DNA of 64,000 bases, from the IMG/VR virus record IMGVR_UViG_3300032291_003441, positions 1-64,000 of that record; one strand, given 5' to 3'. The position numbers and the translations under genes are program-made. Positions 1,030-39,260 of this stretch are shown piece by piece (position 1 is the first letter of the stretch; every line of letters begins with the position of its first letter). The DNA is from a virus. Under the pieces are notes generated by a model. It saw only the letters and a list, made by a program, of their open reading frames with translations. It did not search any database and had not been told where the DNA came from.

Positions 1030-1818
1030 TCAGACGGCACGTCTTTGATCATAGCTTATGATATGATCTCTACCTGTCCAATTATAACCCATTTCAAATG
1101 CTTTTTCTAATGAAATTGGATATTGTTTAATTAATTCTTCTCTATTATCTCCAGCAGGCATCAACCAAGTTTTGTTTTTAGGAATATTCATTTCAACTCT
1201 AAACGCCTCAATTTCATCCATTGTAGCTTGAGTTCCATCATAAACTGGTTTGTAATGATAGTCAGTATGATAATCTAAAGTTTTACGAATTGCCTCTTTA
1301 TTTAACCTAAGCTTATTATGTTGGTCAATCATTTTCTGATCAACGAGTTTACCCATTGGAGTGGTAACGTCAAGACGAGGAACAGAATTACTAAACTTTG
1401 GAGATAAAGATACCAACCCAAATGGATAATCGGTTTCAATAAAGTGGCTACCTTCTGTTTCAATGGTTATACATATACCACGCTCATGAGCAAAATGAGT
1501 TAATTCATTACAAAGATCAGGAACCATTGTTGGTGAACCTCCTGTTAACATCATTTCAGTTATTTCAGGATTTTCATCATATATTTTAATGATGTCATTA
1601 AATGTAAAAATACCTTTTTCTGGATGGATACTTGTGTAAAATGAGTCACACCAACCTCCAGCACCGAACCAGCATCTATGTGTGCAACCTGTTGTTCTAA
1701 TAGCAACAGTAGGTCTACCTTGTCTACTTCCTTCTGATTGGATACAGGTGTAAACTTCTAATACGGGAAGTACTTTATTATAATCTTTTAGTCTTCCGGG
1801 TTTTTTATTTTCTTTCAT
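1030..1818 (-). CDS. queE: QueE-like 7-carboxy-7-deazaguanine synthase (radical SAM)
   Basis: A 262-residue radical SAM enzyme predicted to convert 6-carboxytetrahydropterin to 7-carboxy-7-deazaguanine. It has the QueE-type opening (YTCIQSEGSRQGRPTVAIR), a cysteine cluster loop and an LTGGSPTM motif near residue 91. The cluster cysteines are C45, C49 and C57, giving CX3CX7C rather than the usual CX3CX2C, with GCTHRCWFGAGGWCDS around them. It overlaps the end of the upstream HNH gene by 14 bases. With QueD, QueC and DpdA nearby, it should supply precursor for a modified DNA base. Confidence 0.88.
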   Translation of the reverse strand: MKENKKPGRLKDYNKVLPVLEVYTCIQSEGSRQGRPTVAIRTTGCTHRCWFGAGGWCDSFYTSIHPEKGIFTFNDIIKIYDENPEITEMMLTGGSPTMVPDLCNELTHFAHERGICITIETEGSHFIETDYPFGLVSLSPKFSNSVPRLDVTTPMGKLVDQKMIDQHNKLRLNKEAIRKTLDYHTDYHYKPVYDGTQATMDEIEAFRVEMNIPKNKTWLMPAGDNREELIKQYPISLEKAFEMGYNWTGRDHIISYDQRRAV

Positions 1819-2164
1819 ATTTTAAATATTGTTCAAATGTACTAATTTCTTTTTGTCTCTCCAAGTGATGATATTCAGTATGACAATTTCTACAAAGAGG
1901 TACACATTTTCTAATTTCTTTTTTTATACGTTCTATACTATAAGCATTGTACTGTAAATTTGTTACACCTATTTCTTTTGTTTTAGGATCTAAATGATGA
2001 AATTCTATTAAATACCATATTTTTAATTCACATTTTAAACAATGTAATCTTTTACGTACACGAGTTATAAATTCTTTATTTCTTTTTTCGTATGCTTTTT
2101 TGTGTTTTTTTGCTTTAGCACTATTTTCAGCATAGTACTTAGCGTGATATTCTTGTGTTCCCAT
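1805..2164 (-). CDS. HNH endonuclease inserted between queE and queD
   Basis: A 119-residue protein starting MGTQEYHAKYY. The HNH-type zinc core is visible as HCLKCE, FHHLDPKTKEIG and VPLCRNCHTEYHH. I chose the ATG at 2164 and not the longer reading from 2191, because the recurrent AATATTTATAA motif lies at 2167-2177, three bases upstream; a start at 2191 would place the promoter inside the gene. Its 3' end overlaps queE by 14 bases. It is probably a homing endonuclease that inserted into the queuosine-precursor operon without breaking either neighbour. Confidence 0.85.
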   Translation of the reverse strand: MGTQEYHAKYYAENSAKAKKHKKAYEKRNKEFITRVRKRLHCLKCELKIWYLIEFHHLDPKTKEIGVTNLQYNAYSIERIKKEIRKCVPLCRNCHTEYHHLERQKEISTFEQYLKYERK

Positions 2165-2166
2165 GA

Positions 2167-2177
2167 TTATAAATATT
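2167..2177 (-). promoter_or_regulatory. Late-type promoter motif for the 2164 HNH gene
   Basis: Reads AATATTTATAA, then TC and the ATG. It abuts the terminator hairpin of queD, giving a terminator-promoter joint. Confidence 0.6.
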
Positions 2178-2209
2178 AAGGGGGTTTCCAAAATGCTGGT
2201 CCCCCTTAA
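2176..2209 (-). terminator. Hairpin terminator after queD
   Basis: A 9-bp perfect stem (TTAAGGGGG with CCCCCTTAA) and 16-base loop lies just after the queD stop codon and runs straight into the late motif. Confidence 0.55.
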
Positions 2210-2211
2210 AA

Positions 2212-2685
2212 TTATTCTTGGTAAATACTAGAGTTTTTATCTGCTTCCCAACACTCTACTTTAGTTACTTTAACTCGACCGCCTCCTGATTTGGAAAATA
2301 CGTCATTGAATTTGTCATAAACCATTTTAGCTGCTGATTCGGCTCCAATTTTATCCATTACTCTTAAATGGCATACTGTTGGATTCATTGATTCAAATAA
2401 ATCTAAATATGGATCATCTTTTTCAATTAATAAAGTATGGTCCCACATATAATCCATCCAGTCTTTTAAACCATTTCCTACAGGAACAGATTTAAACCCA
2501 CCGTAATCTTGAATCCAGTTCATTTCATCTAACTGGTTTTCCTCTAGTGGTTCTACGGATTCAAACCATACTTTAAATTTTAAAGCATAACCGTGTAATA
2601 ACTGACAGTGTGAGTGTTGTGCTTTCCACTGTCTAATAGCAACTGAATAGTTGTCGAATAGTTTTGTTGATTGATATTTACCCAT
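2212..2685 (-). CDS. queD: QueD-like 6-carboxytetrahydropterin synthase
   Basis: A 157-residue member of the 6-pyruvoyl-tetrahydropterin synthase family. The zinc and catalytic region reads AQHSHCQLLHGYAL, with the catalytic Cys between zinc-binding His residues. The later LDEMNWIQDYGG and WDHTLLIEKDDP match the usual conserved segments of QueD proteins, as does the C-terminal VECWEADKNS with its substrate-anchoring Glu. It should turn dihydroneopterin triphosphate into 6-carboxytetrahydropterin for QueE. The start overlaps the end of the thioredoxin gene by 8 bases. No GTP cyclohydrolase gene (folE) is in the window, so that step is host-supplied or encoded elsewhere. Confidence 0.9.
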   Translation of the reverse strand: MGKYQSTKLFDNYSVAIRQWKAQHSHCQLLHGYALKFKVWFESVEPLEENQLDEMNWIQDYGGFKSVPVGNGLKDWMDYMWDHTLLIEKDDPYLDLFESMNPTVCHLRVMDKIGAESAAKMVYDKFNDVFSKSGGGRVKVTKVECWEADKNSSIYQE

Positions 2686-2923
2686 TTATAAATTGCATTA
2701 CTTGTTCATATGATCTTGCACCTGTGAATCTACGAACCTCTTGTCCATTTTCCACGAGTATTACAGTAGGAACACTTCCTACATTTGCACCACGGGCTCT
2801 ATCCATTTCATAATCAATATTAACCTTTTCAACACGTACCTGTTTGCTTATTTTATCCATAATAGGACCTAATACTTGGCAAGGTTCACACCAAGGAGCT
2901 GTAAAATAAAATATTTGTTTCAT
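2678..2923 (-). CDS. Thioredoxin-like protein
   Basis: A short 81-residue thioredoxin fold with the redox motif CEPC after FYFTAPW, and the cis-proline loop GSVPTVILVENG. This is shorter than the usual 105 residues, missing the first strand and helix, as in many phage thioredoxins. It overlaps queD at one end and the small membrane protein at the other (4 bases). Likely jobs are reducing the C-terminal cysteines of the phage ribonucleotide reductase at 8005-9861 or supporting the deazaguanine enzymes; both are inference. Confidence 0.85.
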   Translation of the reverse strand: MKQIFYFTAPWCEPCQVLGPIMDKISKQVRVEKVNIDYEMDRARGANVGSVPTVILVENGQEVRRFTGARSYEQVMQFING

Positions 2924-3141
2924 ACTAATTCTTCTATAATTCCTATAAGTTCACTGATAACTAAAATAGTTACTCCAAGGCCAATACCAAAAGGTAAAGC
3001 AAGGTAACCTGTAATTCTAACAGCTGATTTTAAAAAGCTGACTAATTGATGATTTTTAGGATCAGGGATATTTTTAAAATCAATTTCTTTATGTGGTTCT
3101 TGCCACACATTTTTTTTAGGTTGTACTTTCTTAGTTTCCAT
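2920..3141 (-). CDS. Small single-span membrane protein
   Basis: A 73-residue protein of unknown function. The first 35 residues are polar and basic, followed by a hydrophobic span from about residue 44 to 68 (ITGYLALPFGIGLGVTILV...) and a short acidic end. There is no signal-peptide cleavage pattern. It is translationally coupled to the thioredoxin gene by a 4-base overlap and overlaps the upstream gene by 11 bases. It could be a membrane-targeted early protein, but nothing identifies its role. Confidence 0.7.
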   Translation of the reverse strand: METKKVQPKKNVWQEPHKEIDFKNIPDPKNHQLVSFLKSAVRITGYLALPFGIGLGVTILVISELIGIIEELV

Positions 3142-3343
3142 AAATTTCTTCTTCGTTAATTAATTCTGCTCCCCTATTTTCCTCTAGGAGTATAGAGGTG
3201 TTTTCAACATAGAGGGGTTTAGCTTGTTGCCAATTATAGGACCACTGAGTGTATCCTCTAATTAGTCCCGTGTATACTTCCCCCTCCCTGTTGATAACAA
3301 CATACATTGGTTTTTTAGATATTAGTCGTTTTGGCGTCCTCAT
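3131..3343 (-). CDS. Hypothetical protein in the deazaguanine operon
   Basis: A 70-residue basic-to-acidic protein with no recognised motif. The central part (YVVINREGEVYTGLIRGY) suggests a small beta-rich fold. It overlaps the 3' end of queC by 29 bases and the next gene by 11 bases, so it is co-translated with them. Function unknown. Confidence 0.65.
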   Translation of the reverse strand: MRTPKRLISKKPMYVVINREGEVYTGLIRGYTQWSYNWQQAKPLYVENTSILLEENRGAELINEEEIYGN

Positions 3344-4196
3344 AATTTTCTAACACGGAAGATACGAACTCTTTTACGTATTCCCAAGTTACTGGTCCAA
3401 ACTCGTCAGCATATTGTACAGGATCTTTACGACCTAGTTTCATAAATGCCTCTACTCGTTCAACAGATGAGGCTGATTTATAATCACTAAACCATTCTTC
3501 TGATTCAACTGTATCTTCACCTTCATTGTAGTAAACTTTTAATTTGATTGGTTTGTAAGATGTATTTGTTTTAGCATACACTTTATCAAAATTTAAGTGA
3601 AGGTAAGTACAGCATTTTTCACCATCCTTTAAAATATCAAATTTATCACCTAACAGATAAGGAGTATAAAGATATACTTTTTCAGAACCCCAATTACCTA
3701 ATTTAAAGGCCTCAAAATCAGCATCTCTAAATTCTTGTCTACAATCCATATAAATTTGATGATCACCGGCATGTATCCCCATAGCGATAGCACAATTTTT
3801 ACCTGTTTGTTCTGCAATGGATAGAGCAGCCGCTTGAATAATTGAACTAAAGATTTTATTACGATTAGGAACAACTGTTGCTTTCATATTGTCTTCAGCA
3901 TAGTGTCCTTCAGGAACATCATTACCACCCTTTACAAGTGCTGAGTTAAGTAATTTATCCAGTCCTTTTAAAGTAATGGTTTGGTGTTTTACTTTAGCAT
4001 AGTATTGTTCATCCTCATAACGAGAATGAGCATTCAAATACTTTACTAATTCTTTAGCACGTTGTAATTCTACATTGTGTTTTTGTCCGTAATCAAAAGA
4101 CAAACATGTTACTTCATAGCCCTCGGCAAGTAGATGAAGCAGTAGGGTGGAACTATCCATTCCACCACTTAACGATAATACTGCTTTTTTTGTCAT
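3315..4196 (-). CDS. queC: QueC-like 7-cyano-7-deazaguanine synthase lacking zinc cysteines
   Basis: A 293-residue PP-loop ATP pyrophosphatase of the QueC family. The SGGMDSS loop is at residues 10-16, with FDYGQKHNVELQRA, VVPNRNKIF (usually PGRN) and DCRQEF all in place. QueC makes preQ0 from 7-carboxy-7-deazaguanine and ammonia. The usual four-cysteine zinc site is missing: the TCY position reads TSY (residues 212-214), and the CxxCxxC stretch is replaced by WFSDYKSASSVER (235-247). It overlaps its upstream neighbour by one base. Either the fold is stabilised another way or activity has changed. Confidence 0.88.
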   Translation of the reverse strand: MTKKAVLSLSGGMDSSTLLLHLLAEGYEVTCLSFDYGQKHNVELQRAKELVKYLNAHSRYEDEQYYAKVKHQTITLKGLDKLLNSALVKGGNDVPEGHYAEDNMKATVVPNRNKIFSSIIQAAALSIAEQTGKNCAIAMGIHAGDHQIYMDCRQEFRDADFEAFKLGNWGSEKVYLYTPYLLGDKFDILKDGEKCCTYLHLNFDKVYAKTNTSYKPIKLKVYYNEGEDTVESEEWFSDYKSASSVERVEAFMKLGRKDPVQYADEFGPVTWEYVKEFVSSVLENYEDAKTTNI

Positions 4197-29628: not shown

Positions 29629-30834
29629 TTATTGATAAATATTCAACATTTTATCAATTGCGCCAATTACTTGAACAGGTTTTATAGTTTTTGTACATTC
29701 AAAATGTCTTGGAGTATCTTTATGATCAGGACACCATTCCCAATCACCAGGATTTAACCAATGGCGATTAAAACATCCAGTACATGCTTTAGAATCTAAA
29801 GTAAATATACGTTCACAATCTTTAAATTCAGTATAAGGATAACTAAAGCCTGAAATTAAAATAGTTGGAGTACCTATCGACCAGCTTAACCAGCTTAATC
29901 CACTGCCTACTCCTATAAATAATTCAGCATCTCTAATATCAATCATCCTGTCAGATAAATCAATATTATAACCTGTTTTATTTATTACACCGGTTAACGT
30001 ACCTCCTAGTTTTGAATCATGCCATTCATCACCTAAAGGTTCACCTGTTATCATAACTACTTTATAACCTTTTTCATTTAAGTAATCAATAATGGTTTGC
30101 CATCCTTTAGGATGCATCCAATATTTGGCGTGAGAGGAGGCATGAGGAGCTATTACAACATACTTACCTTTTATATTTGTTTTTTTACGAGATATAGTAA
30201 GTTTTGGTTTTACTTCTTTATATTCTAGTCCTAAAATTTCTGGTGGTGTTTGTTGTAGGGGATGTTTTTTAAAATCAAATGGTATTTTATCCTTTACAAT
30301 TTCTTCTCCATCATAAAACCATCCTACATTAAACATAGCATATAAATTGTTTACCTCAGTTCCTGGTTTTACAAACTCAATTTGTGGATATTCTTTTTTA
30401 AACCATTCGTTATGGAATGTAGAACAAATTACCTCACAATCCCATTTTTGTCTAAATTCTTCAGCATAAGGAAACCAAGCTAAAGTATCACCAACTGCTC
30501 CTGAATCTAAATGGATGTAAACTCTTTTGTTTTTAGGGTTAAAGATATGTTCATATACTTTTTCTCCTGTTTTGTTATTAAATACTTCTATTTTCCAGTC
30601 AACACAATACTTTATACTAGTACGAGTCCACATATTATTATTAATAACACTATTATGAACTATTTCATTTGTTTTTGTATTTGTAAAAGTAACTTTATAC
30701 TTTTCTTCTAAAGGTCCTACTACTTCTAAAAAAGCACCATCAACAAAATTAACATTAAAAGTATTTAAAGGTTGCTTACTTTTTAGATTTAAGATTTTAG
30801 TGTTTTTATATTCTTTAATTAGTAAGTCTTTCAT
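29629..30834 (-). CDS. TibC/BAHT-like O-heptosyltransferase
   Basis: A 401-residue glycosyltransferase strongly resembling the autotransporter heptosyltransferases. The N-terminal beta domain (1-100) is followed by YIHLDSGAVGDTLAWFPY (107-123), a GT9-like core (KYWMHPKGWQTIIDYL, LFIGVGSGLSWLSWSIGTP) and a four-cysteine C-terminus: C351, C354, C368 and C380 in ACTGCF, WEWCPDH and FECTK. In TibC the equivalent cysteines hold iron and the enzyme adds heptose to Ser of beta-helical repeats (family knowledge). It overlaps the next glycosyltransferase by 20 bases. The likely acceptor is a phage fibre (inference). Confidence 0.85.
   Translation of the reverse strand: MKDLLIKEYKNTKILNLKSKQPLNTFNVNFVDGAFLEVVGPLEEKYKVTFTNTKTNEIVHNSVINNNMWTRTSIKYCVDWKIEVFNNKTGEKVYEHIFNPKNKRVYIHLDSGAVGDTLAWFPYAEEFRQKWDCEVICSTFHNEWFKKEYPQIEFVKPGTEVNNLYAMFNVGWFYDGEEIVKDKIPFDFKKHPLQQTPPEILGLEYKEVKPKLTISRKKTNIKGKYVVIAPHASSHAKYWMHPKGWQTIIDYLNEKGYKVVMITGEPLGDEWHDSKLGGTLTGVINKTGYNIDLSDRMIDIRDAELFIGVGSGLSWLSWSIGTPTILISGFSYPYTEFKDCERIFTLDSKACTGCFNRHWLNPGDWEWCPDHKDTPRHFECTKTIKPVQVIGAIDKMLNIYQ
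29633..29643 (-). promoter_or_regulatory. Late-type motif before the 29626 gene
   Basis: Minus strand AATATTTATCA, six bases from the ATG; it lies inside the 3' end of the heptosyltransferase gene. Confidence 0.45.
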
Positions 30835-31762
30835 ATAACTGTATTAATTCTTTAGAACGGTTTAACCAAGATAATTCTTGGGCTGTATTTAAAGCATTTT
30901 GTCGGTATTGGTTGTACTCATCAATGATAACATCTAATCCTTGAATTAACAAGTTTAAGTCACGAGGTGCTCTCCATAAACCATGAAATATTGTTTCTTC
31001 CTCAATACATCCTAAAATAGGTAAACCACAGGCTGCTGCCTCCAATAATGTAAGATTAGGATGGCCTGCCTCTAAATCACTAGGATGTAAAAATATAGTA
31101 TGTGAGTTATAAAGCTGTCTTAATTGTTCATTAGATGGTTCATTTAAAACACTTAATTTAGGATAACCAAATATCCACGGATTATCATTAAACCAATTTT
31201 CATTATTTTTAGGTCCAGCTATTGTAATAGGTAAATTACGAGACATAGCTACTTTAACCCCTAACTCAAATCCTTTCCTATCATATGAACCATAACCACC
31301 TAAACCATTATTTGCTAACATTAGTAAGCTATGATAAATAGGGGTTGTATCGTTTGGTTTAAACGTATCTATATTTACTCCATGAGAAAAATAATACACA
31401 TTAGGCAAATCAAAATAATCAACTAAATAACGAGCCGGCACTAAAGAAAAAATAGATTTTTCCATTGCCTCTCGATTTTGTTGGTATATAGTGGAGTCTT
31501 TTCCGTAATGATAAGCATGGTGATCATGGTGTTGAAATACATACGATACGTTATTAGACGCCAATTCTAACGCTAAATTAGCCACATGTACCATCACTAA
31601 ATCATATTCACCTGGTTGGATTTCATTGGCCCATTTTATGTCAACTTCATGGCCTAATTCTTTTAAATTACATGTAAATTCCCAAACAATTTTTTCAATA
31701 GCACCCCATGTAGGTGGGGGAATTGGTATTCCACATCCTGGATTTACTTGACAGATTTTCAT
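30815..31762 (-). CDS. Glycosyltransferase (GT4-type)
   Basis: A 315-residue GT-B fold transferase. The start MKICQVNPGCGIPIPPPTWGAIEKIVWEF is the acceptor-side domain. The C-terminal nucleotide-sugar site reads IFLHPSDLEAGHPNLTLLEAAACGLPILG, the E-x7-E element of family GT4. It overlaps both neighbouring transferase genes (20 and 4 bases), so the three are one translational unit. The sugar donor cannot be told from sequence by eye. Confidence 0.85.
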   Translation of the reverse strand: MKICQVNPGCGIPIPPPTWGAIEKIVWEFTCNLKELGHEVDIKWANEIQPGEYDLVMVHVANLALELASNNVSYVFQHHDHHAYHYGKDSTIYQQNREAMEKSIFSLVPARYLVDYFDLPNVYYFSHGVNIDTFKPNDTTPIYHSLLMLANNGLGGYGSYDRKGFELGVKVAMSRNLPITIAGPKNNENWFNDNPWIFGYPKLSVLNEPSNEQLRQLYNSHTIFLHPSDLEAGHPNLTLLEAAACGLPILGCIEEETIFHGLWRAPRDLNLLIQGLDVIIDEYNQYRQNALNTAQELSWLNRSKELIQLYERLTN

Positions 31763-33750
31763 GATAATGTTAAGACTCCATTTTTAGGTAATTGGTTTTC
31801 AAAGTATTGTTTATCAACTATTATTTTTTTCTCTTCAACTAATGCTTGATTATATCTATCAAAAGCCATGTAATATATTTTATATATTTTTTTAGGATCA
31901 AATGTTACTTGTCTAAACCAAGATAATTTGTGAGTTACTTTTACTGTTTCATCAAACAACATTTTATCATCCTCATAAACAGCTATTTCAATATCTCTAT
32001 TGTCTGTGGAATTAGCTATACTTAAAAACACAGCAAATTGTTCAGGATGATCTTTAACAGGTAGTACAGAAAAATATTCTACTCTTGAATAATCTTTATG
32101 TTCAAAATTTTCATCTATTAATTTGGTAAAATTTAGTTTATCTTCCCAATATATTTTATCTTTATCTTGATTAAATGTATGGTAAGTTAAATTTTCTAAA
32201 CCATTAGATTCACTACCCCATTTTATCATTAAATCATCATATTCTTTAGCTGTTTTAATTAACGGAAAATGATCTAAATAAAATTTAGGTTCTGATGCTA
32301 AGAAATAAGTAATAATTGTATTACCTTCTTGTTCTTTTCTTAAACCAACATATGCTTTTTTATTGTTTAATATTAAAGATATATTATCAATATAAGATGC
32401 ATTTTTTAGATGGTAATCGTAATTTAAAAAATATAATTTTTTAATGCCTAAATCTTTAGCTAACGAGGCAGCATTGTAATAGTTTGTATAAACAGCAGGT
32501 CCATGATAAACATCATTGTTTTCACCTGTTAACATTAAATCTACTCTCCAGCTATCATAGTCAAACCATGTATATTGATAAAATGTATGTTTAGTTAAAA
32601 GATTATTATTATCGTAAATACAATAATCAACCATTTCTTGCAATTCTTTAGGAATTGGTAAATGTGAAGTTAATATAATCTTTCTACCTGTTTGTTTTAA
32701 AGCCTCAATACATTCTTTAGTTGTTTTAACTATAGAGTTTAATAGTGGATATGTTGAAACTACAATTGCTTCTTCCTCTACATTTATATAATTGCTAGAG
32801 TTTAAACTTGATTCAATTAAACTTAGATTATAAGAAAAATCAGTAGTGTCTAAATAATTAACATTATAATCATCCCAATAATTTAAGTATACAGGTAGAT
32901 TATGGATTAAAATTGGTATTTGATATGAAACAGCCTCCCTAATTACTAAAGGCATTGTTTCTTTATCATTGTTTGTACCCCTAGATGTAAATAAGAATAG
33001 ATCCATTGCCTGGTAGAAAGCATCTACATCTGTTCTTTCATTCCACCATGTTAAATTATTAGGCTTATCATTCATTAATGGTTCCCAATAATGTTTAAAA
33101 TTGTCTGCTTGATTACCTACACAATGGAATTCATATTGTGGTAATGCTTTAGCATAGGCAAAAAACTCAGCTTGATTTTTACGAGGAGTAAATAAACCAA
33201 TATGTAAAATATGTTTTTTATTAGGATCTAACCCTAATTTTTGTAGTGCCTCTGTTCTGTCTGGTCTTTCAATATATTCTATAGGATATTCAACTAATAC
33301 TTTAGGAATGTCTATATTTTTATATTGATTTATTTGCCATTGAGACACAAACATAAACTTGTCAGGAAAGAATTTCTTTTGAGTTATATCGTAAGATGAA
33401 TCATGAGATGTTTCTACAATTTTATATGCTCTATCCTGAGTGTAGATTTGGTTTGCAATATTAAAATCCATAAAAAACTCAGGTATTTCCTCTAAATGGA
33501 TAATATCTGGTTTTACTTGATTTATAATATCAATAAGTTCTTGTTTATTTTCTCCTAGAGTAAAAAACTTGTCTTTATCAACAAGCTTTACAATTTTATT
33601 TCTAGTAACTACTAATACACCTCCAGTACAATCTGACCATTCAACTAAATAAATTTCAAAACTATCTTTTAATAGTTCTATTTTTTTAGTTAAATATTGA
33701 GGCAGCCCCCCTGTTGACAAGTGGGGGGCTACATACAGTAGTTTTTCCAT
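31759..33750 (-). CDS. Multidomain glycosyltransferase
   Basis: A 663-residue protein. Residues 1 to about 330 form a GT4-like GT-B transferase (LLYVAPHLSTGGLPQYL, HILHIGLFTPRKNQAEFF, TMPLVIREAVSYQIPILI). A second region from about 350 to 530 has a different alpha/beta fold (RKIILTSHLPIPKELQ, YFLNYDYHLKNASYIDN) that may be a second transferase. The last 110 residues are a beta domain resembling the N-terminal domain of the TibC-like gene (DIEIAVYEDD...KLSWFRQ). It is first in the three-gene glycosylation unit. A strong GC-rich hairpin lies within its first codons. Confidence 0.8.
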   Translation of the reverse strand: MEKLLYVAPHLSTGGLPQYLTKKIELLKDSFEIYLVEWSDCTGGVLVVTRNKIVKLVDKDKFFTLGENKQELIDIINQVKPDIIHLEEIPEFFMDFNIANQIYTQDRAYKIVETSHDSSYDITQKKFFPDKFMFVSQWQINQYKNIDIPKVLVEYPIEYIERPDRTEALQKLGLDPNKKHILHIGLFTPRKNQAEFFAYAKALPQYEFHCVGNQADNFKHYWEPLMNDKPNNLTWWNERTDVDAFYQAMDLFLFTSRGTNNDKETMPLVIREAVSYQIPILIHNLPVYLNYWDDYNVNYLDTTDFSYNLSLIESSLNSSNYINVEEEAIVVSTYPLLNSIVKTTKECIEALKQTGRKIILTSHLPIPKELQEMVDYCIYDNNNLLTKHTFYQYTWFDYDSWRVDLMLTGENNDVYHGPAVYTNYYNAASLAKDLGIKKLYFLNYDYHLKNASYIDNISLILNNKKAYVGLRKEQEGNTIITYFLASEPKFYLDHFPLIKTAKEYDDLMIKWGSESNGLENLTYHTFNQDKDKIYWEDKLNFTKLIDENFEHKDYSRVEYFSVLPVKDHPEQFAVFLSIANSTDNRDIEIAVYEDDKMLFDETVKVTHKLSWFRQVTFDPKKIYKIYYMAFDRYNQALVEEKKIIVDKQYFENQLPKNGVLTLS

Positions 33751-33768
33751 ATAACCTTTAAAATAAGA

Positions 33769-34047
33769 TTAGAAGGAAGCGATTTCAGTATTTTCTATTT
33801 CAGAAGGAATAAATTCTCCACTCTCAATATCAATTGAACCTACACCGTACTTTTCAGACAGTGTTTTTCCTAACTCAGCTTCTTCTTCTTTTAACTCATT
33901 GTAGAATTTAATAATGTCTACTTTTCTTGCTTCAATTTGCAATTTAGCGATTTCTAAACCACCGAATTCATTAACAACAGCAGTGTTTTTTTGTTGAATT
34001 AATTTAAGAGCTTCAATCTCTTTTTTAGTTAATTTTTTAGTACCCAT
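33769..34047 (-). CDS. Coiled-coil protein, paralogue of the 28564 gene
   Basis: A 92-residue helical protein beginning MGTKKLTKKEIEALKLIQQK and ending in a short beta-like segment (EKYGVGSIDIESGEFIPSE). The C-terminal pattern is shared with the 28564-28815 protein. It sits just ahead of the glycosyltransferase unit. Possible roles include scaffolding of the transferases or fibre attachment, both guesses. Confidence 0.7.
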   Translation of the reverse strand: MGTKKLTKKEIEALKLIQQKNTAVVNEFGGLEIAKLQIEARKVDIIKFYNELKEEEAELGKTLSEKYGVGSIDIESGEFIPSEIENTEIASF

Positions 34048-34134
34048 AGATTTTGTTTATTTATAACAGTTTATATGTAATAAATATAATAAAAATAAGT
34101 TAAACACCCAAGTTTTATTATAAAATAATTAAAA

Positions 34135-34818
34135 TTAATTTACAGTAACTGTAAAATACAAACCTGTGTAACCACTGTAAGCGGCTACATCCGCTGTTCC
34201 CCATGTAGTTGATGTAAATGTTGTTCCACCTGAGCCTGCTGCTACTGTTTGTCCTGTAAAAAAGCTAGTACCATTTATAGATAAATCTGCTGTTCCTCCG
34301 GCAAATGAAGGAAAAGCTCCAGAAACTATTACTTTCCAATAACCCCTAAATATAATAGGATCTCCAGTAGGTTGACTTACTGCTGTTGGTCCATAAGTAC
34401 CAGGTGCCATAGCCATACCACCACCACTTAAATATTGATATGCAAAACCTGAATCCCATAATTCAACATTCACATTAACAGCATTATCTACTGGAGGAGG
34501 AGGAAATGGTGGGGGATTTGTTTTATTATTTGTTACATTTAAAGTTACCTGGAATGTAGAATTATCATAGTAGTACGTTAAACCATCAAAATCACCTACA
34601 CCAATATTTGAAGTTTTAGCAGATGTTCCATATATTCTATTAGCTCCTGATCCTTCACCTTGGCCCCAATTATTAGTTGTTTGTGAATTTGAACCATTAG
34701 GACCAGCAAAATATGAAAAAAAACTCATAGTTAACATACTAATAATACCTGAGGAATAAGTGCTATTGGCTTCTTCCCATATGTTTTTAAAACTAACGTT
34801 TGAAGTTGGAACCGTCAT
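34135..34818 (-). CDS. Probable tail fibre-associated protein
   Basis: A 227-residue Gly/Ser/Thr/Asn-rich protein. The first 35 residues (TVPTSNVSFKNIWEEANSTYSSGIISM) look like a virion attachment module. A run of prolines (PPPFPPPP near residue 105) separates it from a C-terminal beta domain. It overlaps the end of the giant Gly-X-Y fibre gene by four bases, so the two are probably made together and may assemble together. Confidence 0.7.
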   Translation of the reverse strand: MTVPTSNVSFKNIWEEANSTYSSGIISMLTMSFFSYFAGPNGSNSQTTNNWGQGEGSGANRIYGTSAKTSNIGVGDFDGLTYYYDNSTFQVTLNVTNNKTNPPPFPPPPVDNAVNVNVELWDSGFAYQYLSGGGMAMAPGTYGPTAVSQPTGDPIIFRGYWKVIVSGAFPSFAGGTADLSINGTSFFTGQTVAAGSGGTTFTSTTWGTADVAAYSGYTGLYFTVTVN

Positions 34819-37800
34819 TTTAATTTATTTTCTAATTCTTCTACTCTTTTACTTAGTTCTTTAATAGCTTCAATTAATAAAGCATTTAAGTTTCCATAAG
34901 CTACAGATTTCATTCCTGTTTTAGAATCTGTATGAACTACTTCAGGTAATACCTTTTCAACTTCTTGAGCTATAACACCAGCATATCTATTTATATTGTC
35001 TGGATTGTCTAGTCGTATAAAGGTAATTCCATTTATTTGGTTAATTTTATTAATAGCATTTTCAATTACTTTAATTTCACCTTTAATTCTAGAATCTGAA
35101 AATGCTTGAATATCATTTGAAGCATAAATTGAGATACCACTTACGTTAGCATTAACATGAACAGGATAGCTTGGACTTGTTGTACTAACTCCTAGTCTAC
35201 CATTTGTAACATCAGTGTATAAAAAAGATACACTTTGTATAGTAGTAGTACCTGTAGTTCTTACTAAATAATCAGGTTGATTAGTAAATGTACCTCCACT
35301 TATTCCTGAAGTACCATTAAAGGAGAGTCCTGATGTTCCCGCTGAACCGCTTGTACCTGAAGTACCAGCAACAGCAGAAAAACCAGCAGCGCCTGCTATA
35401 CCTGAAGTACCTGAAGTACCTGCTGTTCCTGAAGTATTTGAGGAGCCTGATGCCCCTGCAGCCCCTGTTGTTCCATTTGATCCTGCTGAGCCTGCAGAAC
35501 CAGAAGTATTTGAAGCTCCTGAAGTACCTGCGGCTCCTGTTGTTCCGTTAGAACCTCCAGATCCTGAAGTACCACTTGTATTTGATATACCACTTGCTCC
35601 TGCTAAACCTGAAGTACCTGTTGTACCAGAAGATCCAGCAGAACCACTTGTACCACTTGTATTACTTGCTCCTGAAGACCCAGCAGCACCTGAAGTGCCA
35701 TTTGAACCTGCTGAACCTGAAGAACCTGAAGTATTAGAAGCACCTGAAGAACCTGCAGCACCTGTTGTTCCATTAGAACCAGCTGAACCTGAAGTACCTG
35801 AGGTAGCTGAAACCCCTGAACCTCCATCTACACCTGAGGTTCCTGTAGAACCAGATGAGCCTGAAGAACCTGAAGTGTTAGAGGCACCTGAAGAACCTGC
35901 AGCACCTGTTGTTCCGTTTGATCCTCCTGAACCGCTTGTACCTGATGTATTACTTGAACCAGAAGAACCCGCAGCACCTGTTGTTCCGTTTGAACCCCCA
36001 GATCCTGAAGTACCTGATGTATTACTTGATCCTGATGTACCAGCTGCTCCGCCTGTCCCATTAGAACCTGCTGAACCAGAAGTACCAGAAGTTGCACTAG
36101 CTGCTGAGAAACCTGCAGCACCTGCTATACCTGAAGTGCCTGAAGAACCAGATGAACCTGATGTATTTGAAGATCCTGAAGTACCAGCGTTTCCTGTTGT
36201 TCCATTAGAACCTCCTGAACCAGCTGAACCACTTGTATTAGAGGCACCTGAAGTGCCTGCTGCTCCTGTAGTACCTTGTGATCCACCTGAACCACTAGTA
36301 CCTGAAGTATTTGAATTGCCTGATGTGCCTGCGTTTCCTGTTGTACCTTGAGAACCAGAACTACCTGATGAGCCACTTGTTTGTGATAAACCAGAAGTAC
36401 CTGCTGCTCCTGTACTACCTTGAGAACCACTAGACCCACTTGAACCACTTGTTTGGCTTGCTCCTGAAGTACCGGCTGCACCTCCTGTACCATTAGAACC
36501 ACCGGATCCACTAGTACCTGAAGTATTTGAAATACCACTAGCACCAGCTAGACCTGAAGTACCTGTAGTACCTGAAGAACCTGCTGAACCGCTTGTACCT
36601 GAAGTATTACTTGCTCCTGAAGAACCTGCAGCACCTGAAGTACCGTTTGATCCTGCTGAACCTGAAGAGCCTGAAGTATTAGCTAAGCCTGATGTACCTG
36701 CTGCTCCTGTAGTACCAAATGATCCACTTGAACCACTAGAACCACTTGTTTGTGATAAACCTGAAGTACCTGCTGCTCCTGTGCTACCATTTGAACCACT
36801 TGATCCAGATGTACCTGAAGTTGCTGAAACACCTGAACCACCGTCTACACCTGAGGTACCAGTTGAACCTGAAGATCCACTAGAACCTGAAGTACCAGCA
36901 GTACCTGCATTACCTGATGTACCTGAAGAACCTGAAGCTCCTGAGGTACCGCTTGTTTGACTTAAACCACTTGTACCTGTTGAACCACTTGATCCACTTG
37001 TACCTGAAGTACTAGATTGACCTGAGTTTCCCGCGTTACCTGTGGTACCATTTGAACCACCTGAACCGCTTGTACCTGAGGTATTTGAATTGCCTGATGT
37101 ACCTGCGTCTCCTGTTGTACCAAACGATCCTGACGAACCAGAAGAACCTGAAGTATTAGATAAGCCACTTGTACCAGCTGCGCCTGTACTACCTTGTGAA
37201 CCGCTAGATCCACTAGAACCACTTGTTTGACTTAATCCTGAAGTACCTGCTGCACCTGTACTACCTTGTGAGCCTGAACTACCTGAGGAACCACTTGTTT
37301 GACTTTCTCCAGAAGTACCTGCTGCGCCTGTAGTTCCATTAGAACCTGAAGAACCGCTTGTACCTGAAGTTGCACTGGCTGCTGAGAAACCTGCAGCACC
37401 TGCTATACCTGATGTACCTGAACTACCACTAGTTCCTGAAGTGTTTGAAGTACCACTTGTACCATCAACACCTGAAGTACCATTTGAACCTGTTGAGCCT
37501 GATGTACCTGAACTACCTGAAGTACCTGTAGAGCCACTTAAACCTGAAGAGCCACTTGTACCACCAGTTTGTGATAAACCACTTGTACCTGTAGAGCCTG
37601 AGCTACCTGAAGTTCCTGAAGTAGAACTTTGCCCACTATTGCCAGCGTTTCCAGTAGTACCATTAGAACCACCTGAACCGCTTGTTCCTGAAGTATTTGA
37701 GCTACCTGCAGTACCAGCATCACCTGAAGTACCATATGAACCTGTAGATCCACTTGAACCGCTTGATCCGCTAGAACCTGAAGTACCATCCGCACCACTA

Positions 37801-39260
37801 GATCCTGAAGAGCCTGTGGATCCACTTGAACCGCTTGAGCCGCTTGAACCACTTGAGCCGCTTGTTCCATTAGTACCTGAAGTACCTGATGATTGAGCTA
37901 AGCCTGAAGTACCTGTTGAACCAGAGCTTCCTGAAGTACCTGAAGTACTTGCTTGGCCTGAATTTCCTGCGTTACCTGATGAACCATTTGAGCCACCTGA
38001 TCCTGATGTGCCGGATGAGCCTGATGTACCTGAAGAACCATCTGCTCCTGAACTGCCATTTGAACCCGCAGAACCTGAGGAACCACTAGTTCCACTAGAA
38101 CCTGAAGAGCCATCTGCCCCGCTTGAGCCTGAAGTACCTGTAGAACCATTTGAACCTGAGGTTCCTGATGATCCTGAAGAACCAGAAGATTGAGATAAAC
38201 CACTTGTACCTGTACTACCACTTGAGCCAGATGTACCTGAGGTACTTGATTGGCCTGAGTTCCCGGCATTACCTGATGAACCGTTTGATCCTGATGAACC
38301 ACTAGTTCCTGAAGAGCCAGAAGTACCACTTGAGCCATCAGCTCCACTAGATCCAAAAGTTCCAGAACTTCCACTTGACCCACTAGATCCTGAAGAACCA
38401 CTTGAACCATCAGCTCCACTAGATCCAAAAGTTCCTGATGAACCTGAGCTACCAGAAGAACCACTTGAAGCACTTAAACCTGAAGTACCAGTACTACCGC
38501 TTGAACCTGAAGTTCCTGCAGTACTAGATTGACCTGAGTTACCAGCATTACCATTTGAACCTGAACTACCACTAGAACCTGAAGTTCCACTTGTATCTGC
38601 TGTTCCTGAAGAACCAGCTGAACCTGAGGTACCAACTGTACCACTTGATTGACTTAATCCTGAGGTACCTGCTGTACCTGATGAGCCTGAAGTACCTGAA
38701 GTGCTTGATTGGCCTGAGTTACCACCATTACCTGATGAACCATTAGAACCACTTGAACCTGATGAACCAGCTGTTCCTGAAGAACCAACTGAACCACTTG
38801 AACCAGAAGTACCACTTGTACCTCCACTAGTACCTGAAGTACCTTCTATACCACTTGTACCAAATGAACCTGTTGAACCTGAACTACCACTTGTTCCTGA
38901 AGAGCCTGCTGTATTTGAAGTACCACTTGTACCGGCTGTTGTACCTGATGTGCCCGAAGAACCATTTATACCTGAAGTACCATTAGAACCAGATAAACCA
39001 CTAGAACCAGATAAACCTGAAGAGCCTGATGTGCCTGAAGAGCCTGATGTGCCTGATGTACCTGTTGTACCACTTCCTCCACCGCCTCCTAAAACTAAAG
39101 ATACAACTCCATCATCATTAATGGTTAAAACATAACCTTCCCATCCTTCAGTTACAATAGGTAAATTAAATTTATTAAAAGCTAATGATCTATCAAAAAA
39201 ACCTCTACCTTGGTTTGGGTTGTCTAAACGATTATTACCTCTGTATCTGTTTTCAGCCAT
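34815..39260 (-). CDS. Giant collagen-like Gly-X-Y fibre with S74 chaperone
   Basis: A 1481-residue fibre. Residues 1-55 form a virion-anchor-like head. About 1265 residues then follow a Gly-X-Y rhythm dominated by Gly-Ser-Ser, Gly-Thr-Ser and Gly-Ser-Asn triplets with no proline. At intervals one Gly is replaced by Asn, Gln, Ser or Ala; in the C-terminal half this gives a 24-residue super-repeat. The end is a Peptidase_S74 intramolecular chaperone: SDSRIK (Ser1388, Lys1393), GVIAQEVEKVLPE and VAYGNLNALLIEAIKEL, which trimerises and self-cleaves in other phage fibres. The neighbouring glycosyltransferases make its Ser/Thr-rich shaft a probable glycosylation substrate. Confidence 0.9.
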   Translation of the reverse strand: MAENRYRGNNRLDNPNQGRGFFDRSLAFNKFNLPIVTEGWEGYVLTINDDGVVSLVLGGGGGSGTTGTSGTSGSSGTSGSSGLSGSSGLSGSNGTSGINGSSGTSGTTAGTSGTSNTAGSSGTSGSSGSTGSFGTSGIEGTSGTSGGTSGTSGSSGSVGSSGTAGSSGSSGSNGSSGNGGNSGQSSTSGTSGSSGTAGTSGLSQSSGTVGTSGSAGSSGTADTSGTSGSSGSSGSNGNAGNSGQSSTAGTSGSSGSTGTSGLSASSGSSGSSGSSGTFGSSGADGSSGSSGSSGSSGSSGTFGSSGADGSSGTSGSSGTSGSSGSNGSSGNAGNSGQSSTSGTSGSSGSTGTSGLSQSSGSSGSSGTSGSNGSTGTSGSSGADGSSGSSGTSGSSGSAGSNGSSGADGSSGTSGSSGTSGSGGSNGSSGNAGNSGQASTSGTSGSSGSTGTSGLAQSSGTSGTNGTSGSSGSSGSSGSSGSTGSSGSSGADGTSGSSGSSGSSGSTGSYGTSGDAGTAGSSNTSGTSGSGGSNGTTGNAGNSGQSSTSGTSGSSGSTGTSGLSQTGGTSGSSGLSGSTGTSGSSGTSGSTGSNGTSGVDGTSGTSNTSGTSGSSGTSGIAGAAGFSAASATSGTSGSSGSNGTTGAAGTSGESQTSGSSGSSGSQGSTGAAGTSGLSQTSGSSGSSGSQGSTGAAGTSGLSNTSGSSGSSGSFGTTGDAGTSGNSNTSGTSGSGGSNGTTGNAGNSGQSSTSGTSGSSGSTGTSGLSQTSGTSGASGSSGTSGNAGTAGTSGSSGSSGSTGTSGVDGGSGVSATSGTSGSSGSNGSTGAAGTSGLSQTSGSSGSSGSFGTTGAAGTSGLANTSGSSGSAGSNGTSGAAGSSGASNTSGTSGSAGSSGTTGTSGLAGASGISNTSGTSGSGGSNGTGGAAGTSGASQTSGSSGSSGSQGSTGAAGTSGLSQTSGSSGSSGSQGTTGNAGTSGNSNTSGTSGSGGSQGTTGAAGTSGASNTSGSAGSGGSNGTTGNAGTSGSSNTSGSSGSSGTSGIAGAAGFSAASATSGTSGSAGSNGTGGAAGTSGSSNTSGTSGSGGSNGTTGAAGSSGSSNTSGTSGSGGSNGTTGAAGSSGASNTSGSSGSSGSTGTSGVDGGSGVSATSGTSGSAGSNGTTGAAGSSGASNTSGSSGSAGSNGTSGAAGSSGASNTSGTSGSAGSSGTTGTSGLAGASGISNTSGTSGSGGSNGTTGAAGTSGASNTSGSAGSAGSNGTTGAAGASGSSNTSGTAGTSGTSGIAGAAGFSAVAGTSGTSGSAGTSGLSFNGTSGISGGTFTNQPDYLVRTTGTTTIQSVSFLYTDVTNGRLGVSTTSPSYPVHVNANVSGISIYASNDIQAFSDSRIKGEIKVIENAINKINQINGITFIRLDNPDNINRYAGVIAQEVEKVLPEVVHTDSKTGMKSVAYGNLNALLIEAIKELSKRVEELENKLK
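35293..39089 (-). repeat. Gly-X-Y coding repeat, about 3.8 kb
   Basis: Nine-base and 72-base periodicities from repeated Gly-Thr-Ser and Gly-Ser-Ser codons. The block is purely coding repeat DNA and would be prone to unequal recombination, altering fibre length. Confidence 0.9.

Follow-up and report, generated by a model that had tools for sequence, protein, structure and literature searches.

Why does a water-borne phage carry three overlapping glycosyltransferase genes beside the gene for a giant collagen-like tail fibre? The question is posed by a 64,000-nucleotide stretch of viral DNA (hereafter the window), which is part of a 73,086-base linear IMG/VR record (IMGVR_UViG_3300032291_003441). 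A sheath gene and a T4-like gene order, the latter judged from translations, mark this 73-kb record as a myovirus fragment. The original prediction for this locus was that the phage glycosylates its own fibre. We judge that the gene cassette does so with a probability of roughly three in four. One of its enzymes, a homologue of the O-heptosyltransferase TibC, is linked, in phages and bacteria alike, to Ser/Thr-rich Gly-X-Y proteins, and this makes self-glycosylation the leading explanation.

The proposed acceptor is a tail fibre of 1481 residues, encoded on the minus strand (34815..39260) and recognized by its composition and by matches to Pfam Collagen (PF01391, E = 1.4e-115) and to PHROG tail fiber families. 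An N-terminal region of about 58 residues leads into a Gly-X-Y shaft of about 1200 residues without Pro, and the C-terminal region carries a Peptidase_S74 intramolecular chaperone (PF13884, E = 9.8e-12, residues 1388-1443). Of the 389 register positions in the core of the fibre (residues 147-1313), Gly occupies 346. A shift of register falls near residues 108-144, and along much of the shaft Asn, Gln, Ser or Ala substitutes for Gly about every 18-24 residues. There is no Pro at all across residues 59-1325, so that the shaft lacks the imino acids that stabilize collagen. The X position of the shaft is filled mainly by Ser (156) and Thr (139), the Y position by Ser (246), Ala (57) and Thr (31). 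The giant Ser/Thr-rich, Pro-free fibre was thus correctly described, as were the three overlapping transferase genes (29629-33750), which lie downstream on the same strand with two small genes intervening.

The most informative of the three genes is the last (29629..30834, minus strand). On its sequence, the 401-residue product is a genuine TibC-type enzyme and a putative O-heptosyltransferase, which we propose initiates glycosylation on Ser/Thr of the shaft. It scores 301.3 bits against the TIGR04414 equivalog profile (curated cut-off 200, E = 9e-90, profile positions 13-373 of 374), also matches Glyco_transf_9, and matches the TibC structures PDB 4rap/4rb4 with E about 1e-55; PHROGs has no family for it. 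Relative to the catalytic and sugar-binding residues of TibC named in PMC4358343, window residues D116, S233, K237, R296 and W315 align with D110, T226, K230, R286 and W305 (Ser replacing Thr at S233). All four Cys of the iron finger (TibC C339-342-358-370) are also kept. Among 50 phage representatives, the catalytic Asp and the donor-site Lys and Trp are present in every one and the donor-site Arg in 36; the iron-finger Cys are present in 50/50, and in 118/118 of a larger alignment. The family match and the conserved residues bear out the original reference to TibC-type enzymes.

Is the neighbourhood of enzyme and fibre more than a coincidence of one genome? A single query found at least 230 viral stretches encoding TibC relatives. 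We clustered the phage relatives at 90% identity, and 30 clusters had enough flanking sequence to be resolved. A Gly-X-Y gene lies nearby in 28 of these, and that gene is rich in Ser/Thr and almost free of Pro in 25 (L082 is included in the 25 through its second Gly-X-Y gene). The count of 28 takes in Pro-rich fibres (L206, L218, L081) and is therefore not relied on alone; moreover, it starts from TibC, and we therefore added two tests that are independent of TibC. In the first, a DNA pattern of sixteen in-register Gly codons retrieved 120 viral loci regardless of TibC, and 100 whole records of those loci were searched with TIGR04414. TibC was present in 5 of 10 records of the Ser/Thr class but in only 1 of the other 90 (Fisher p = 1.9e-5), and in that lone exception (G058) a 622-triplet Ser/Thr-rich, Pro-free fibre gene adjoins the Pro-rich one. 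In the second test, which was anchored on the sheath, a Ser/Thr-rich Gly-X-Y gene was present in 5 of 11 loci with TibC and in 0 of 18 without (p = 0.004); both samples include related phages, so that the two p values are guides only.

Bacteria carry the same pairing. A scan of genomes yielded 153 relatives, of which 80 were kept. In Methylobacter luteus and Methylobacter sp. BlB1, tibC directly follows the gene for a small Gly-Thr-Ser protein that has a signal-peptide-like start and matches Pfam Collagen (E = 5e-8), and the pairs are in ordinary chromosomal surroundings. Across the Methylococcales that we surveyed, such a partner, on either strand, occurs in 6 of 7 genomes whose TibC is at least 57% identical but in 0 of 6 loci where identity is 53% or lower. 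Contigs of Polaromonas and Arenicellales metagenome-assembled genomes also carry such a partner beside TibC. The chromosomal partners are short (about 13-19 triplets). As a hint at hosts, two loci binned with Flavobacteriia (L390, L391) bear phage sheath and tail-like genes.

A tree of 118 TibC domains, in which the sequences are clustered by kinship, splits into two clades on a branch with a Shimodaira–Hasegawa-like approximate likelihood ratio (SH-aLRT) of 100. The canonical clade (78 rows) holds TibC of enterotoxigenic Escherichia coli together with Burkholderiales, Lentisphaerota and others, and has a Ser/Thr Gly-X-Y neighbour in 0/78 in the available flanks; AIDA stalk repeats were found in 4 of the 6 canonical-clade neighbours scanned. 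Clade II (40 rows), to which the window enzyme belongs, joins phages with chromosomal Methylobacter and others, and has such a neighbour in 32/40. Several of the remaining eight rows have short flanks or Pro-rich fibres. We think it probable that clade II is a previously unrecognized branch of TibC-type enzymes specialized on Ser/Thr-rich, Pro-free Gly-X-Y proteins, used by phages to coat hundreds to thousands of fibre residues with complex glycans (the partners being glycosyltransferase family 4 (GT4) enzymes, FkbM proteins and a carbamoyltransferase) and by Methylobacter-like bacteria to coat secreted proteins.

Could the transferases act on something other than the fibre? The alternative that survives best is that they remodel glycans (lipopolysaccharide (LPS) or capsule) or proteins on the host surface and thereby block superinfection, in which case their proximity to the fibre gene would reflect an island of host-recognition genes. 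LPS and capsule are common targets of GT4 enzymes, and a published study reads the glycosyltransferases that pelagimyophages encode in their tail-fibre region as host-surface modifiers (PMC7029224). However, the TIGR04414 enzymes characterized so far modify proteins (PMC4358343), and the transferase genes of the window sit within a run of virion genes. Moreover, TibC follows Ser/Thr Gly-X-Y fibres, not collagen-like fibres or sheath-bearing phages in general, and its chromosomal clade II members are paired with secreted Gly-Thr-Ser proteins. We therefore consider a host-surface role unlikely, and on the same evidence we set aside modification of DNA or LPS as the main role.

It is more doubtful still that the cassette modifies another virion protein, such as the 227-, 260- or 92-residue protein or a baseplate protein, and not the Gly-X-Y shaft. 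The 260- and 227-residue proteins are small, virion-like and Ser/Thr-rich, and they are encoded in the same gene run, but many TibC loci lack them, whereas Gly-X-Y proteins span unlike layouts and bacteria. In addition, neither the fibre nor any of ten window proteins matched an AIDA-type stalk repeat in profile scans. Least credible is a tie between TibC and fibre through common descent of one tail module with no functional link: many of the sampled phage loci do come from related phages that share a sheath neighbourhood, and the sequences are clustered by kinship, but the pairing survives with the fibre upstream or downstream, on the same or the opposite strand, and with GT4 and TibC separate or fused, and it recurs in Methylococcales, Polaromonas and Arenicellales contigs.

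Several observations weigh against glycosylation of the phage's own shaft by this enzyme. The repeats that known TibC-type enzymes modify are beta-helical (PMC4358343), unlike a Gly-X-Y shaft. At the heptose stereoselectivity position (Pro300 in TibC, Ser294 in AAH), Gly is found in the window enzyme and 31 of the 40 clade II rows, Ser in 73 of the 78 canonical ones. Most of the sampled clade II rows have lost R286. The hydrophobic thumb tip through which TibC forms a dodecamer (F265/V266) appears replaced, by Asp or Glu in the window enzyme and related phages and by a gap in others, in a 51-row alignment; the 118-row set aligns this tip differently, so that the local alignment is uncertain. 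The fold and chemistry of TibC are kept, but with these three changes details of the donor, and the oligomeric assembly, may differ. No ADP-heptose synthesis genes were recognized in the record by inspection of gene starts only, and no glycosyltransferase was recognized, again from gene starts only, near three Ser/Thr shafts (L265, L297, L284). Clade II members L182, L206, L218 and L478 lack a Ser/Thr Gly-X-Y neighbour, and the huge phage LR756504 encodes a clade II TibC with no collagen match at all.

How might self-glycosylation of the fibre work? In our proposal, the TibC-type enzyme would act in the host cytoplasm before the fibre assembles, putting the first sugar on Ser/Thr hydroxyls of the Gly-Thr-Ser / Gly-Ser-Ser shaft. 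Known TibC relatives use heptose from host ADP-heptose, though the donor of the window enzyme may differ. The glycan would then be extended by the two other transferases; in relatives it would also receive methyl groups from FkbM methyltransferases and carbamoyl groups from a carbamoyltransferase. The outcome would be an extended, glycan-coated stalk without Pro. The enzyme family, the conserved active site and the clade-wide, specific pairing are read from sequence; from these we infer substrate, sugar, order of action and benefit.

Composition suggests where the sugars might go. In 37 linked shafts the X position is on average 52% Thr and 26% Ser, and the Y position 67% Ser and 6% Thr. Because Thr is mostly at X and Ser at Y, the likelier acceptors are Ser at Y or Thr at X. 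The original prediction had drawn an analogy with vent-worm cuticle collagen, in which glycosylated Thr at Y stabilizes the helix, and this part of it fails. Stabilization of the triple helix is itself a weaker proposal than it had seemed, because some Pro-free Ser/Thr shafts have no recognized glycosyltransferase close by and because the bacterial partners have only about 13-19 triplets, which makes a mucin-like coated stalk as plausible as a stabilized triple helix. Glycosylation most likely serves to keep the shaft soluble, stiff or resistant to proteases, and effects on receptors or stealth are possible.

The two candidate extension enzymes are encoded on the minus strand just before TibC. 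GT663 (31759..33750, 663 residues) matches Glycos_transf_1 (PF00534, E = 8.4e-12). Its AlphaFold2 model has a mean predicted local distance difference test (pLDDT) score of 70, and the best Foldseek matches are GT4 enzymes (E = 7e-7), with weaker matches to GT-A enzymes. The model suggests a GT4 (GT-B) N-terminal half, a second domain faintly like GT-A and a C-terminal beta-sandwich. We dropped an attempt to assign a function to the C-terminal half from structure, given the pLDDT of only 70 and the weak GT-A resemblance. GT315 (30815..31762, 315 residues) is GT4-like, with a group 1 glycosyltransferase match (PF13524, E = 3.8e-6) that is weak yet above the gathering score. In each of two dissimilar phage layouts it keeps its place between the GT663 and TibC genes: in one the fibre is upstream on the same strand and the trio precedes the sheath gene, and in the other the fibre is downstream on the opposite strand with no sheath nearby. 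Other phages fuse GT4 and TibC into one protein of about 770 residues. Accessory genes of the cassettes encode FkbM methyltransferases, joined in one layout by a carbamoyltransferase; both are kinds of enzyme that tailor sugars.

Giant Gly-X-Y genes also turned up elsewhere. In the cultured Microcystis phage Mel-JY01 (PP395634.1), which also has a GT4-TibC fusion, a Ser/Thr Gly-X-Y fibre of about 1790 residues spans the ends of the linear record (L231 2-3049 plus L507 4688-7000); it is unannotated, and an antisense coding sequence is annotated over it. The 735-kb phage LR756501.1 (L508, L509) carries several giant Gly-X-Y genes of about 1600-3500 residues, mostly Ser/Thr-rich and one Pro-rich, as well as a GT4-TibC fusion. 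In G066 (L371 15198 to L372 11097) an open frame of about 5300 residues, its continuity derived from coordinates, has about 1490 Gly-X-Y triplets and overlaps a TibC fusion gene.

All six genes of the chain in the window are on the minus strand, in the order fibre, 227-residue protein, 92-residue protein, GT663, GT315 and TibC. The 227-residue gene (34135..34818) overlaps the fibre stop by 4 bp, GT663 and GT315 overlap by 4 bp, and GT315 and TibC by 20 bp. The 227-residue protein has no confident Pfam match and is found in only part of the related loci. The 92-residue protein (33769..34047) has no family match in profile searches, and cross-matches relate it to an 83-residue protein encoded before the sheath gene. 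On the minus strand of the window, 14 of the 21 occurrences of TATTTATA (coding strand) fall no more than 30 nt upstream of a start codon, a zone that takes in about 3.5% of the strand; examples precede the starts at 39260, 26134, 22925 and 25115. To judge by this placement, TATTTATA is likely a promoter or translation signal of the phage. In a timing test based on the TATAAATA late promoter, the enriched motif was TATTTATA on the coding strand, so that the motif does not settle the expression class. At 1030-4196 the window encodes proteins that resemble, by sequence, QueE, QueD and QueC of the 7-deazaguanine pathway.

The closest known systems are the TibC/AAH heptosyltransferases (BAHT; TIGR04414, PDB 4rap). 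These share with clade II near full-length homology, the catalytic Asp, the donor-site Lys and Trp, the iron finger and a gene beside a repetitive exported or surface protein. By contrast, clade II forms a separate branch, its partner is a Gly-X-Y protein and not an AIDA-type beta-helix adhesin, it has Gly at the stereoselectivity position and an apparently replaced thumb tip, and it is often phage-borne in multi-enzyme cassettes. In Clostridioides difficile the adjacent transferase SgtA likewise O-glycosylates Thr of the collagen-like region of the exosporium glycoprotein BclA3 (PMC7157674), but SgtA is a GT-A enzyme that uses UDP-N-acetylglucosamine, and its targets are GPT repeats with Pro on spores. 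The original statement that no phage system of this kind had been described was too strong. In vitro, the collagen lysyl hydroxylase/glucosyltransferase L230 of Mimivirus glycosylates low-proline collagen-like proteins of the virus itself (PMC9614988), although its target is hydroxylysine, the enzyme differs, the virus is eukaryotic and glucosylation is unconfirmed on particles. Mycobacteriophages glycosylate proteins of their particles, on the C-termini of capsid and tail tube subunits, according to Freeman 2023 as cited in PMC12619734; there the host group and, in that account, the target proteins are different. Collagen-like side-tail proteins of E. coli O157 prophages are Gly-X-Y phage fibres that form trimeric triple helices, and the abstract of PMC3368898 describes no glycosylation of them. 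The pairing of TibC with collagen-like proteins was not found in the open-access literature searched, and a prior description elsewhere is possible; the match for 'collagen-like' with 'heptosyltransferase' in open-access full texts concerned Cronobacter autoaggregation.

For a widespread group of phage glycosyltransferases, encoded in at least 230 viral stretches and otherwise taken for host-surface modifiers, self-glycosylation offers a specific, testable function. It may also open a route to glycosylated Pro-free collagen-like materials. If it is true, a protein-glycosylating family would reach from beta-helix adhesins to collagen-like stalks, and giant phage fibres would be glycoproteins, with a bearing on phage adsorption, stability and recognition.

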